From Rhodovulum kholense (GTDB lineage Bacteria; Pseudomonadota; Alphaproteobacteria; Rhodobacterales; Rhodobacteraceae), in NCBI RefSeq assembly GCF_003053725.1, contig NZ_QAYC01000001.1:62001-126000 (forward strand): a stretch of 64,000 nt of DNA, in the 5' to 3' direction. Numbering within the stretch: the stretch's first letter is position 1; every line of letters starts with the position of its first letter. Below the pieces are notes generated by a model. That model searched no databases. It was given only the letters and a program-made list of their open reading frames with translations, and was not told the DNA's origin. Positions 30,515 to 49,681 of the stretch are shown piece by piece. The translations under genes were made by a program, and so were the position numbers.

Positions 30515-30559
30515 CGCGGATCTCCTTGCCGGGGCACCCCGCCCGGGTTCACACGCTTG

Positions 30560-30745
30560 GATGGCAGGTCTCCTGGCTTGCGGGTCATCGCCGCCCCGAC
30601 CCTTCCCGGACCGTTCGGTCCAGTGGCCGTCTCGGGGGGCTCTCCGCCTACAGTTGCGGGGGCAGCCGCGGATTTGCCGGAGGTTCCGGCGGACCGCGTT
30701 CCCTTTTCACCCGCGCGGCCGGCAAGGCCTGCGGGAACCATCGCC
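30560..30745 (-). promoter_or_regulatory. Cobalamin (AdoCbl) riboswitch
   Basis: On the minus strand the conserved elements occur in order: GGTGAAAAGGGAACGCGGT, GCAAATCCGCGGCTGCCCCC with CGCAACTGTA, CCACTG, GGGAAGG, and the B12 box AAGCCAGGAGACCTGCC (30563-30579). It points away from metH and towards the small gene that starts at 30514, whose ribosome-binding site begins about 40 bases after the B12 box, so translational control is likely. Confidence 0.93.
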
Positions 30746-30875
30746 ACAAGCGCTACCCGGCCGGGCGGGCGGCTGTCAATGGCGCAGAATATCGGCCGTG
30801 AATGTGAGCCGGCCTCATAAAGATCCTGACAAACATGAATTGGACAGGCGCGGCCGAAGGCCATATCTGCCGTCC

Positions 30876-42739: not shown

Positions 42740-43369
42740 TCAGTTGCGCGCCGCCGTCGCGGTCAGGGCCCCCATGCCGATCAGCGCGCCCCCCCCGGCC
42801 CGGGTCATCCAGCGCAGCACCGAAGGCCGCCGGATCTGCGCCCTGAGCCGGTCGGCCAGCAGCGCATAGCTCAGCGCGTTCAGCGCGGCGAGCCCGACGA
42901 ATGTGGCGATCAGCGTTGCGAATTGCGGCGCCAGCGGCGCCTCGGGCCGCAGGAATTGCGGAACGAACGCGATGAAGAACGCGATCGATTTCGGGTTCAA
43001 CGCCGTGACCAGCGCGGCATGGGCGAAAATCGCCCGGGCCGGGCGCTGCTCTGGCACGCCGCCGCTCTCCTCTTCCAGTGCCGCCGGACGGCTCCGCAAA
43101 AGCTTGACCCCGAGCCAGACCAGATAGGCCGCCCCCACCCATTTCAGCACCGAGAACAGCGTGGCCGAGGCCAGCACCAGCGCGCCCAGGCCTGCCAGTG
43201 AGGCGGTCATCGCGATCAGATCGCCCAGCGCGACACCCAGGGCCATCGCCACGGCCACCCGCCGGCCCTGGCTCAGGGCATAGCTCAGCACAAGCAGGAC
43301 CGTCGGCCCCGGGCTCATCAAAAGAAGAGCCGAAGCCACGGCAAAGGCAAACCACAGATCCAAGGGCAT
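42740..43369 (-). CDS. LysE/RhtB family amino-acid exporter
   Basis: 209 residues with six helices. Seen: the family signature SPGPTVLLVLSYALSQGRR followed by ALGVALGDL, and ALNPKSIAFFIAFVPQFL in the middle. Exports amino acids or related metabolites across the inner membrane; substrate not predictable. Start at 43369. It is downstream of gcdH on the same strand but separated by 168 bases with a GC hairpin. Confidence 0.92.
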   Translation of the reverse strand: MPLDLWFAFAVASALLLMSPGPTVLLVLSYALSQGRRVAVAMALGVALGDLIAMTASLAGLGALVLASATLFSVLKWVGAAYLVWLGVKLLRSRPAALEEESGGVPEQRPARAIFAHAALVTALNPKSIAFFIAFVPQFLRPEAPLAPQFATLIATFVGLAALNALSYALLADRLRAQIRRPSVLRWMTRAGGGALIGMGALTATAARN

Positions 43370-43452
43370 TGCGGGCACTCCTGCACGAAAAGGCACGGCT
43401 TCCACATACGCCGGTTTCAGCCCGAAACCCAGCGCGGCGAAGGGCCTGTCCC

Positions 43453-45812: not shown

Positions 45813-47087
45813 ATGAAGATGGCCGACTATCCCGCCCTCGGCATCCCCGACGAGGGGAAGCTCTCGCACAACATCCTTCATTTCGCGCGTGCCCTGCGCA
45901 GGGCAGGGCTGCCGGTCGGCCCGGGCCGGGCCATCGATGCCATTCGCGCGGTCGAGGCGGCTGGCTTCACCGACCGGGCCGATTTTCACCACACGCTCGC
46001 CGCCTGTTTCGTGTCGCGCCCCGAGCATCGCGCGGTCTTCGACCAGGTGTTCCGGCTGTACTGGCGCGACCCGCGCTTTCTCGAACACATGATGAGCCTG
46101 ATGCTGCCCGCGCTGCGGGGCGCCGCGGAAGAGCGCCGGGCGCGGCCGGCCGAAAAGCGCGCGGCCGAAGCGCTGCTGGACGGCGTGCCGCGCGACCTGC
46201 CTGATCCGTCCGGCCCGGCGCCGGAAGAGGAAATCAAGATCGACGCGACCGGCACCCAGTCGGCACGCGAACGGCTGAAGAGCCTGGATTTCGAGCAGAT
46301 GAGCACCGCCGAGACCGCCGAGGCGAAGCGGATGCTGGCCCGGCTGCGCCTGCCGGTGGCGCCCCTTGTATCGCGCCGCAGCCAGGCCGCGCGGCGCGGG
46401 CGGCTGCCGGACTGGCGCGGCACGATGCGCGCCTCCCTGCGCGCGGGCGGGGAGGTCCGCGATTTTTCGCAGAAAAATCGGCGCCCGCGCTGGCCCAATC
46501 TGGTGGTGCTCTGCGACATCTCGGGGTCGATGTCGCAATATTCGCGCATGGTGCTGCACTTCCTGCACGCCGTCTCGAACGCCAGGGGTGCGGGCTGGGC
46601 GCGGGTGCATGCCTTCACGTTCGGCACCCGCCTGACCAACATAACCCGCCATCTCGCGACCCGCGACGTCGACGCGGCGCTTGGCGCGGCCGGGGCCGAG
46701 GCCCCCGACTGGGACGGCGGCACCCGAATCGGCAGCGCGCTGCATGCCTTCAACCGCGACTGGTCGCGCCGGGTTCTCGGGACCGGTGCGGTGGTGCTGC
46801 TGATCACGGACGGGCTCGACCGCGACGAGGCGGACATCCTGTCGCGAGAGATCGAGCGGCTGCATCTCTCGGCGCGCCGTCTCATCTGGATCAACCCGCT
46901 TCTGCGCTGGGACGGATTCGCGCCCAGGGCCCGGGGAATACAGGCGATGTTGCCCCATGTGGATTGCTTTCGCGCGGGCCATTCGGTCCGCTCGCTGGAA
47001 GAGCTTGCCGACGCCGTCTCCGAGGCCCGCGACACCGGCGAACGCGACCGCCTGCTGGCCGCCATGCGACATTCCGGACCGGTTTGA
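45813..47087 (+). CDS. VWA-domain protein, CoxE-like
   Basis: 424 residues. Seen: an N-terminal helical region, a central Arg-rich linker and a C-terminal von Willebrand A domain with an intact MIDAS, CDISGSMSQ (about residue 235), then TFGTRLTNITR and ITDGLDRDE. Works with the MoxR ATPase. ATG 45819 is an alternative start. The stop codon lies inside the FnrL box that drives the next transcript. Confidence 0.9.
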   Translation: MKMADYPALGIPDEGKLSHNILHFARALRRAGLPVGPGRAIDAIRAVEAAGFTDRADFHHTLAACFVSRPEHRAVFDQVFRLYWRDPRFLEHMMSLMLPALRGAAEERRARPAEKRAAEALLDGVPRDLPDPSGPAPEEEIKIDATGTQSARERLKSLDFEQMSTAETAEAKRMLARLRLPVAPLVSRRSQAARRGRLPDWRGTMRASLRAGGEVRDFSQKNRRPRWPNLVVLCDISGSMSQYSRMVLHFLHAVSNARGAGWARVHAFTFGTRLTNITRHLATRDVDAALGAAGAEAPDWDGGTRIGSALHAFNRDWSRRVLGTGAVVLLITDGLDRDEADILSREIERLHLSARRLIWINPLLRWDGFAPRARGIQAMLPHVDCFRAGHSVRSLEELADAVSEARDTGERDRLLAAMRHSGPV

Positions 47088-47097
47088 TCCAGATCAA
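47084..47097 (+). promoter_or_regulatory. FnrL box TTGAT-N4-ATCAA
   Basis: TTGATCCAGATCAA is a perfect FNR/FnrL palindrome centred at 47090.5, overlapping the coxE stop. A GATACAT -10-like sequence at 47116-47122 places a transcription start near 47128-47132, so FnrL would sit near -40, as in class II activation under low oxygen. Confidence 0.8.
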
Positions 47098-47127
47098 AGT
47101 GACGGCCCGGCGAAAGATACATCTGAC

Positions 47128-47295
47128 AGTCACTGTTTGCGGGCGGCGTCGGAACGTTCCCAGCCGACGCCAGCAAGCCTGCAGCGAGTCCCTGTGTCTT
47201 TCCCAACACAGGATTTCGGCATCAAAGGGGTCCTCCCTCCCCGGATGCCGGTCAGTGAAACGCCGTGGGCCCTCCCTCCCACGGCGTTTTTCGCG
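47128..47295 (+). ncRNA. Candidate FnrL-dependent small RNA with C-rich loops
   Basis: About 165 bases with no open reading frame, starting after the FnrL promoter and ending at a classical terminator. Four hairpins: GGCGTCGG/CCGACGCC (47145-47171); CCTGTGT/ACACAGG (47191-47212, loop CTTTCCCA); GGCATC-AAA-GGGG/CCCC-G-GATGCC (47218-47249, loop TCCTCCCT); and AAACGCCGTGGG/CCCACGGCGTTT (47258-47289, loop CCCTCCCT) followed by TTTTT. The last two loops differ by one base and could pair with Shine-Dalgarno sequences. They resemble the CCUCCUCCC loops of Rhodobacter CcsR RNAs. It does not read into the YeeE/YedE genes, which have their own promoter. Confidence 0.72.
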
Positions 47296-47354
47296 TTTTC
47301 CGTTCCCGTTTTTGTCACAGGCGATCCGTCTTGATCCGACTCGTCGGGCGCTGT

Positions 47355-47382
47355 CATTATATTCCAAACAGAGAATATAATG
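47355..47382. promoter_or_regulatory. SqrR/BigR-type operator before the YeeE/YedE genes
   Basis: CATTATATTC (47355-47364) and GAATATAATG (47373-47382) form a perfect 10-bp inverted repeat around 8 bases, containing ATTC-N8-GAAT, the site of the sulfide/persulfide-responsive ArsR-type repressors SqrR and BigR. A TTGATC -35-like hexamer at 47331 and CATTAT at 47355 put the operator on the -10 of the promoter. Confidence 0.75.
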
Positions 47383-47398
47383 AGGGGAGTGAAATCCG

Positions 47399-47965
47399 GT
47401 GAAACCCATGCCACTCAACTGGAAGATTGGCGGTCCGCTCCTTGGGATCGTGTTCTTCCTGGCCGTGCTTCTGGCCAAGCCGATCGGCGTCTCGACCCAG
47501 TTCGTGGTGCTCGACGCCATCCTGTGGAACCTCCAGCAGCCCGACGCGGGCATCGTCACGCAAACCGCCGAGGGCTTCACCTCGACCAACGCCTATCTGG
47601 CGAAATCGGGCGGGGCGCTGGCGGACGAGGCGGGCAACCCGCTGACCTATCCGGTGGTCTTCGTGCTGGCGATGATGGTGGGAGCGTTCCTGTCCTCGCT
47701 GATCCGCTCGACCGTGCCGAAGGGCGAGCGCAACGTACCCGCCATGTACCGCGCCAATACCGGCGGCTTCTGGCCGCTGCGCTGGGTCCTGGCCTTCGCG
47801 GGCGGCGTTCTGGTGCTTTACGGCGCGCGGCTCGCGGGCGGCTGCACCTCGGGGCACATGATGTCGGGGATGATGCAGACCTCGGTCTCGGGCTATGTCT
47901 TTGCCTTCGGGGCGTTCCTGACCGCCTTCCCGACGGCGATGATGCTTCTGAAGAAGGAGGGCTGA
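47399..47965 (+). CDS. YeeE/YedE-type sulfur transporter, half 1
   Basis: 188 residues with four or five helices of the YeeE/YedE (DUF395) family, which carries thiosulfate or other sulfur species. Seen: the signature GGCTSGHMMSGM near residue 150, whose Cys is thought to relay sulfane sulfur (known from thiosulfate transporters). GTG start after AGGGGAG; ATG 47408 is in frame. Translationally close to half 2 (3 bases apart). The operator upstream points to induction by sulfide or polysulfide. Confidence 0.9.
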   Translation: MKPMPLNWKIGGPLLGIVFFLAVLLAKPIGVSTQFVVLDAILWNLQQPDAGIVTQTAEGFTSTNAYLAKSGGALADEAGNPLTYPVVFVLAMMVGAFLSSLIRSTVPKGERNVPAMYRANTGGFWPLRWVLAFAGGVLVLYGARLAGGCTSGHMMSGMMQTSVSGYVFAFGAFLTAFPTAMMLLKKEG

Positions 47966-48624: not shown

Positions 48625-48694
48625 TCGCCACCTTTTGCCTATTCCCCCCGGCGGCCTGGCCCCCCAATATCCGGGCCGAGGGAGGGCACCATCC

Positions 48695-49681
48695 ATGCAG
48701 ATCGCAGACCATGACGCGATCCCCGAGACCGCGCTGGAATGGCACCGGACGGGGCAGGGTGCGGCGCTGGCCACCGTGGTCGAGACCTGGGGCAGCGCGC
48801 CGCGCCCGGTCGGCAGCCAGCTTGCGGTTTCGGGCGCGGGCGGCATGGCGGGGTCGGTTTCGGGCGGCTGCGTCGAGGGCGCGGTGATCGCCGAGGCGCT
48901 CGAGGCGCTGGGCGACGGCCGCCCGCGCCTGCTTGACTTCGGGGTCAGCGACGAGGATGCCTTTGCCGTGGGGCTCGCCTGCGGCGGCCGCATTCGTGTG
49001 CTTGTCGAGCCGGTGGGGGCGGCGCTGCCCGAGGCGCTTCTGGCCGATCTGGTCGCGGCCCGGGCCGCGCGCCGGGCGGTGGCCTATGTGGTCGAAACCG
49101 ACAGCTGGGCGCGGCGCCTTGCGGAGCCCGGCGATCCGGGGCTCGGGCCGGTTCTGGCCGACCGGATGCGCGCCGACCGCTCGGGCTTCGAGGGGGCGGC
49201 CTTCATCGGGATTCACAATCCGCCGTTGCGGCTTGCCGTTGTCGGGGCCGTCCATATCGCCCAGCCGCTGGTGCGGATGGCGCGGCTGGCGGGCTTTGCC
49301 CCGGTGGTGATCGACCCGCGCCCGGCCTTCGGGTCCGAGGCGCGGTTTCCCGGCGAGACCCTGATCGACGCCTGGCCGGACGAGGCGCTGGCGGGCCTCG
49401 GCCTCGACGCCCGCACCGCGGTCGTGACCCTGACCCATGATCCCAAGCTCGACGATCCGGCGATTCTGGCCGCGCTTCAGTCCGAGGCGTTCTATCTGGG
49501 CTGCCTCGGCTCGCCCCGCACCCATGCCAGGCGGGTCGAGCGGTTGCAGGCGGCCGGGCTGACGCCCGACCGGATCGCGGCGATCCACGCGCCGGTGGGG
49601 CTCGATATCGGAGCCCGATCGCCAGCCGAGATCGCTGTCGCGATCCTGGCCGAGATCGTCCAGCGGCTGAGGCGGGGCTGA
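48695..49681 (+). CDS. XdhC/CoxF-family molybdenum hydroxylase maturation protein
   Basis: 328 residues, two domains: N-terminal XdhC_CoxI with ATVVETWGSAPRPVGSQLAV and VSGGCVEGAV, and a C-terminal Rossmann-type domain with VVTLTHDPKLDDPA and YLGCLGSPRTHARR. Family members bind molybdenum cofactor and protect or insert it into xanthine-dehydrogenase-type enzymes. Start at 48695 after GAGGGAGG. Its stop shares a base with the next ATG. Confidence 0.92.
   Translation: MQIADHDAIPETALEWHRTGQGAALATVVETWGSAPRPVGSQLAVSGAGGMAGSVSGGCVEGAVIAEALEALGDGRPRLLDFGVSDEDAFAVGLACGGRIRVLVEPVGAALPEALLADLVAARAARRAVAYVVETDSWARRLAEPGDPGLGPVLADRMRADRSGFEGAAFIGIHNPPLRLAVVGAVHIAQPLVRMARLAGFAPVVIDPRPAFGSEARFPGETLIDAWPDEALAGLGLDARTAVVTLTHDPKLDDPAILAALQSEAFYLGCLGSPRTHARRVERLQAAGLTPDRIAAIHAPVGLDIGARSPAEIAVAILAEIVQRLRRG

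Follow-up and report, generated by a model that had tools for sequence, protein, structure and literature searches.

A putative FnrL-activated small RNA with repeated C-rich loops in Rhodovulum and its relatives among Rhodobacteraceae

The locus between coxE and the sulfur transporter gene yeeE of Rhodovulum kholense raises the question of whether it encodes a small RNA of its own, how such an RNA would be controlled, and on what it would act. The whole stretch of DNA that was analysed, 64,000 nucleotides, is referred to here as the window, and all positions are those of the window. Our preferred reading, which we consider likely, is that positions 47084-47294 constitute a stand-alone, FnrL-activated small RNA that would act in trans by blocking Shine-Dalgarno sites, with xdhC as the best local candidate target. 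The parts of this reading, which was derived from DNA sequence, differ in strength: the locus is very probably a real small-RNA gene under FNR-type control, and the loop-to-Shine-Dalgarno mode of action is a reasonably confident prediction.

FNR-type box, predicted promoter and hairpins

The pattern TTGAT-N4-ATCAA has a single match in the 64 kb, TTGATCCAGATCAA at 47084-47097 on the plus strand, where 0.04 matches are expected by shuffling. As the first-pass annotation had described, this FNR/FnrL box overlaps the stop codon (TGA, 47085-47087) of coxE (45813-47087, plus strand; VWA_CoxE, Pfam PF05762, 214.5 bits). The same annotation had placed a -10-like sequence 20 bases on, and ATACAT is indeed found at 47117-47122 on the plus strand, 19 bases past the box, where it may serve as a -10 element. 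The box is a predicted FNR-type site at a plausible activating distance, and the genome has an FnrL gene, identified by NCBIfam NF045989 (462.8 bits, cutoff 300). The usual place of a class II activator box is -41.5, and a box at that position would put the RNA start approximately at 47132, with the -10-like element then lying 2-3 bases beyond the textbook spacing. No sigma-70-type promoter was listed on the plus strand by a consensus scan, as is expected of a box-activated promoter without a -35 element. In the 16 Rhodovulum loci described below, T(A/G)CAT is found at exactly identical spacing from the box in all 16, and the box itself is found by pattern in 15, the 16th having one changed base. 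Two of these genomes have a second FNR box after the small-RNA terminator and before yeeE (L005 and L015, reverse-complement positions 1719 and 1550, 0-based).

The region that follows the box folds far more stably than its shuffled versions, with -87.3 kcal/mol for 47120-47300 against a shuffled mean of -59.9 (z -6.56, 0/200 shuffles as stable). Within the proposed small RNA (47132-47294, plus strand, the start being approximate), the fold reproduces the four ordered hairpins and the loops that had been read from the letters, all on the plus strand. H1 (47137-47184) carries the loop AACGTTCCCAG at 47153-47163, H2 (47191-47212) the loop CTTTCCCA at 47198-47205, H3 (47217-47250) the loop TCCTCCCT at 47231-47238, and H4 with its T run (47257-47291) the loop CCCTCCCT at 47270-47277. 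The loops fall into two classes, UUCCC in H1 and H2 and CUCCCUCCC in H3 and H4; the UUCCC of H1 was absent from the earlier description. That description had the unit end in a terminator, and H4 does have the form of an intrinsic terminator (stem 47257-47290, T run 47287-47291). The consensus scan did not list it, seemingly because the T run pairs with the A's preceding the stem. The claim that the hairpins lie without an open frame did not hold literally, as two plus-strand frames, 46957-47334 and 46964-47380, cross the region; relatives show gaps of lengths not divisible by three, an argument against coding.

The hairpins sit on the same strand between coxE and yeeE/xdhC, with the box over the coxE stop codon, and this arrangement would also suit a cis element that serves yeeE or xdhC as leader or attenuator, or that forms the 3' end of a coxDE transcript. 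However, the unit has its own box and a terminator-like end, and yeeE starts 107 nt past the T run with an inverted repeat (47356-47381) in between. In relatives from other genera, the next called gene after the unit is convergent in four genomes (G264, G027, G293 and G261), and the upstream gene is OmpA-like, by eye, in two (G400 and G244). A unit with a convergent next gene in four genomes, and with 107 nt and an inverted repeat before yeeE here, cannot be a general leader, and we regard the cis reading as very improbable. The small RNA would instead probably act in trans, and not as a leader to the gene that follows. One point against our reading comes from G264, where mechanical gene calling gave a frame on the minus strand that overlaps the RNA.

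The inverted repeat before yeeE, ATTATATTC-N8-GAATATAAT, is operator-like, and we take it to resemble the ATTC-N8-GAAT operator of sulfide-responsive repressors of the BigR/SqrR type. If it is an operator, the sulfur transporter would be controlled by sulfide, independently of the small RNA.

Conservation in Rhodovulum and in other Rhodobacteraceae

A DNA search of 61 genomes matched 16, namely the source genome and 15 others of the genus, and none of the 45 genomes outside Rhodovulum. A covariance model without box or promoter (R1), built from 14 of the 16 Rhodovulum genomes, found one strong copy in each of the 16, with further matches only at E 3e-4 or worse. The RNAalifold structure in R1 mispaired H3, and the model is therefore weaker than it could be. 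A search of named genomes with 19 bases of the terminator hairpin returned 12 stretches, nine from Rhodovulum and three from metagenome assemblies (one labelled Rhodobacteraceae); the metagenome contigs L049 and L054, labelled as other phyla, have only the 19 search bases in common with the RNA. Plasmid records gave no match to the small RNA, and viral contigs held no relative of coxE.

The first-pass annotation had tied its case to conserved stems and loops with compensatory changes in relatives, and this prediction survived, with covarying stems and invariant loop cores. In a sequence-only MAFFT alignment of 14 Rhodovulum sequences (G010 and G011, which have extra hairpins, were excluded), the helices of H1, H2 and H4 were paired in 93.9% of 444 cells, compared with 39-56% in slid controls. 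Two-sided changes were found in 33 cells versus 12.4 in shuffles (0/500 as high) and in 11 pairs versus 7.0 (4/500), three of the seven pairs of H2 among them, while further pair types were not clearly above shuffles (55/500). H4, whose stem and loop are nearly invariant, had no two-sided change among the 14 aligned sequences. H3 was misaligned by MAFFT, and its arms were therefore chosen by hand for each sequence; in the outer helix 82/83 cells were then standard pairs, with two-sided changes at 5/6 positions, a result that the picking favours. The loops are invariant inside the genus, and the cores TTCCC (H1), TCCC (H2) and CTCCCTCCC (H3 and H4) are invariant in the 14 sequences.

When R1 was run on 394 genomes of the family, 56 had matches at E 0.1. 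Of the 28 genomes outside Rhodovulum with the best scores, 15 carry the box TTGAY-N4-RTCAA, placed 148-243 nt upstream of the 3' end of the match, compared with a background of 0.017 boxes per 330 nt in the rest of those loci. The other 13 best matches lack a strict box within 330 nt; judged by eye, they include CcsR-like RNAs, a tRNA and plain terminators, together with G221, whose box is one base off, and G389, whose box lies farther upstream, ahead of a longer array. Twenty of the 28 weaker R1 places were examined, and one (G400) has a box; the rest resemble, by eye, ordinary terminators, apart from a CcsR-like RNA in G409. A search of 240 genomes across the class gave 10 with a match at E 0.01, the source genome included. 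Conservation outside the genus is patchy.

A box with C-loop hairpins was found in 18 genera, these being the 15 above plus G389, G298 (found via coxE) and G400 (the weaker match). In 15 of the 18, the unit lies near coxE, yeeE, xdhC or infC: after coxE in eight (G063, G364, G270, G360, G255, G338, G389 and G298), before xdhC with the OmpA-like gene upstream in G400 and G244, and beside infC or yeeE in five (G264, G031, G027, G293 and G258). The exceptions are G346, G261 and G217, the last with the unit before ccoG. Some of the neighbour assignments (infC outside G264, ispG and the OmpA-like gene) were made by eye, others with Pfam. The window also holds infC (minus strand, called from 54089 down to 53682) and lysE (42740-43405), so that this looks like one neighbourhood common to the relatives. 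A general linkage to coxE was considered and rejected. The gene is found in 281/394 family genomes, and of 110 downstream regions examined, mostly the best-scoring, seven have a strict box within 420 nt, two of them in Rhodovulum; two of the seven (L072 and L145) lack CTCCC.

In G217 (L046/L237), the box and a C-loop terminator unit precede ccoG (FixG_C by Pfam) in a cbb3 oxidase cluster, so that such an FNR site, if credited to ccoG, might serve a small RNA as well.

Relation to CcsR, ar14 and other small RNAs

The proposed RNA is, as judged by its predicted loops, a variant of the alphaproteobacterial RNAs with anti-Shine-Dalgarno loops. It was compared with members of that group. A permissive Rfam scan of 601 bases (46900-47500) gave ar14 at 30.8 bits (E 0.00064, gathering score 58.8), ar7 at 29.4 bits (E 0.00065, gathering score 60) and anti-hemB at 21.1 bits, all below gathering, and no match to CcsR1 (RF02791) up to E 10. 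Three further Rhodovulum copies scored 31.5, 31.5 and 41.5 with ar14, the last being L011. Among control loci without a box, ar14 was above gathering in L033, and CcsR1 was found below gathering in L031, L188 and L033.

An alternative is that the locus is a CcsR or ar14/ar7 ("cuckoo"-type) RNA that was brought under FNR control. The weak Rfam similarity to ar14 and ar7, which is highest in L011, points that way, as does a shared design with C-rich loops and stems that vary (PMC10746234). Against it, both gathering scores were missed, and the CCUCCUCCC motif of CcsR and ar14/NfeR1 is absent, the loops here being CUCCCUCCC and UUCCC. Moreover, the lack of a CcsR1 match contrasts with CcsR-like RNAs at other loci in all 16 Rhodovulum genomes, usually as two adjacent copies; their best scores are 45.8-59.5 against a cut-off of 65.3, and 2/14 control genomes also matched, likewise below it. 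The two classes are not told apart by their neighbouring genes. The CcsR-like locus of G081 has a DUF1127 gene, and the neighbours of the small RNA here are CoxE and the sulfur transporter, but the 3.3 kb surrounding the source genome's own CcsR-like pair showed no evident DUF1127 frame, so that a missing DUF1127 neighbour does not count against the alternative. No FNR box was found in the same 3.3 kb. We hold the alternative to be unlikely. The locus had been described as related to or parallel with the CcsR group, and the parallel relation is the one favoured by the absent CcsR1 match, the other loop word and the separate CcsR-like copies. The small RNA is probably not CcsR, though it may share a remote ancestor with the ar14/ar7 class, given the similarity scores.

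The likeness to individual known RNAs is partial in each case. The scan of 46900-47500 gave no match to FnrS, which we take to be included in Rfam and the structure of which presumably differs from that of the small RNA here. FnrS of Escherichia coli is similar in that it is a small RNA reported to be under FNR control in anoxia (PMC8139620). CcsR of Rhodobacter sphaeroides is alphaproteobacterial, occurs in the same family and has C-rich, anti-Shine-Dalgarno-like loops; its four copies are reported to be co-transcribed with ccaF1, a DUF1127 gene (PMC10253847). It differs in its CCUCCUCCC motif (Rfam description), whereas the RNA here has CUCCCUCCC and UUCCC, one strong copy per genome and an FNR-type box. 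NfeR1/ar14 of rhizobia (RF02344) likewise consists of several hairpins whose loops are C-rich and whose stems vary, and it reportedly uses redundant loops to silence ntrB at the translation start (PMC10746234), but it has three identical CCUCCUCCC motifs and is activated by LsrB and repressed by NtrC. PcrZ, RSs0019 and RSs2461 of R. sphaeroides, compared by description and not by sequence, share a link to low oxygen or FnrL: PcrZ is reported to be induced at low oxygen, directly by PrrA and perhaps indirectly by FnrL (PMC8139620), and RSs0019 and RSs2461 to have FnrL ChIP-seq sites (PMC4263372). Small RNAs of P. denitrificans that are reported to be conserved in Rhodovulum sulfidophilum (PMC5107571) are known here by description.

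Proposed action and candidate targets

We propose that, at low oxygen, FnrL would activate the small RNA from a start near 47132. The single-stranded C-rich loops (UUCCC and CUCCCUCCC) would base-pair with target mRNAs at their G-rich Shine-Dalgarno region and thereby keep ribosomes from binding. Several loops per molecule may provide redundancy or multivalency, as reported for NfeR1.

The number of predicted loops varies between genera, from two in G270 to six in G364, with about seven C-loop words in G389, and in some relatives the C-rich loops are only a part of those predicted (2/4 in G346, 4/6 in G364). A varying number of hairpins with repeated words suits valency more than one fixed seed. 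The same features would fit a sponge, whose chief role would be to titrate a protein or a second RNA by way of the repeated C-rich loops, in place of a direct block of mRNAs. No partner was identified here, however, and the same loops fit Shine-Dalgarno sites well, and we consider a sponge improbable as the main role. In the longest relative (G389, L095), the UUCCC and CUCCCUCCC words nearly alternate, about seven in number by eye, which suggests that the array grew by duplication of a two-hairpin unit.

With direct pairing to Shine-Dalgarno sites as the preferred mode of action, the best local candidate target is xdhC (48695-49681, plus strand; Pfam PF13478 and PF02625, with the NCBIfam XdhC models below their cut-offs), the product of which would act in the maturation of molybdo-hydroxylases. 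Before its ATG at 48695, AGGGAGGGC (48679-48687, plus strand) is a 9-nt complement of GCCCTCCCT in H4 and a candidate target site. The predicted loop duplex at xdhC, -27.1 kcal/mol, ranked first of 44 starts in the window by our own gene calls, the next being -22.9. The site is also the only AGGGAGG of the window that precedes a start on the plus strand, with one further minus-strand match inside coxE. In the source genome, AGGGAGG stands before ATG 94 times, compared with 9 for the reversed pattern and 92 starts for AAGGAGG. AGGGAGG is thus a common Shine-Dalgarno form, and complementarity alone selects little.

When repeats of one genome were dropped, AGGGAGG preceded xdhC in 12/22 cases near the RNA (9/13 in Rhodovulum, 3/9 in others) versus 2/34 away from it. 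Fisher's test gave p 6.5e-5 overall and a one-sided p of 0.054 outside Rhodovulum, with kinship uncontrolled, and the association between the xdhC site and the RNA is confounded by kinship. The xdhC of G013 is not near the RNA yet has the site, and so do the two genes that follow it, one coxS-like according to Pfam and the other coxL-like by eye. We regard xdhC as a tentative target, somewhat less likely than not.

The sox genes were considered as targets and rejected. In Rhodovulum, AGGGAGG is found at soxV in 15/16, soxW in 15/16 and soxA in 16/16 genomes, with 5/16 at soxX, 1/16 at soxY, 1/16 at soxZ and 0/16 at soxB. In other genera, the values with the RNA versus without a detected copy (no model match at E 0.1, so that short copies may have been missed) are 13/15 vs 16/17 for soxA, 8/14 vs 9/20 for soxX, 3/14 vs 4/20 for soxW and 2/14 vs 3/20 for soxV. 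The sites are as frequent without the RNA and so do not depend on it, and no claim is made for sox. As an observation in its own right, AGGGAGG stands at soxA in 16/16 Rhodovulum and 29/32 other genomes, with 1/50 at soxY and 1/50 at soxZ (L270-L301, L332-L366).

Among the open-licence papers listed by literature searches, no title or abstract opening describes this small RNA. A ChIP-seq study of FnrL in R. sphaeroides reports 13 sites without an annotated gene or upstream region, two of them at known small RNAs (PMC4263372); small-RNA genes such as this one could explain some of these orphan sites. A comparative study from 2010 lists a "xanthine and cobalt dehydrogenase maturation factor" group (RSP1934) among predicted targets of the FixK group (PMC2908626, Table 1), and RSP1934 is of the xdhC type by annotation. 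The box ahead of xdhC in G400 and in G244 is followed by a hairpin unit with a terminator, an arrangement that makes a re-assignment of the xdhC FNR site testable; RSP1934 is not equated with the gene of G400. We lean towards the view that these loci represent an undescribed, modular family of oxygen-controlled small RNAs across Rhodobacteraceae, in which an FNR-type promoter precedes UUCCC/CUCCC hairpins that differ in number, and that FNR-type sites assigned to xdhC in regulons may in part belong to the RNA. If so, an oxygen-controlled RNA layer would be added to the FnrL network of purple bacteria, and the family would offer a tractable small RNA in which the number of hairpins changes between genera while the loop words persist.

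Two riboswitches were also found on the minus strand of the window, a cobalamin riboswitch at 30546-30757 (118.6 bits) and a TPP riboswitch at 1120-1216 (63 bits).
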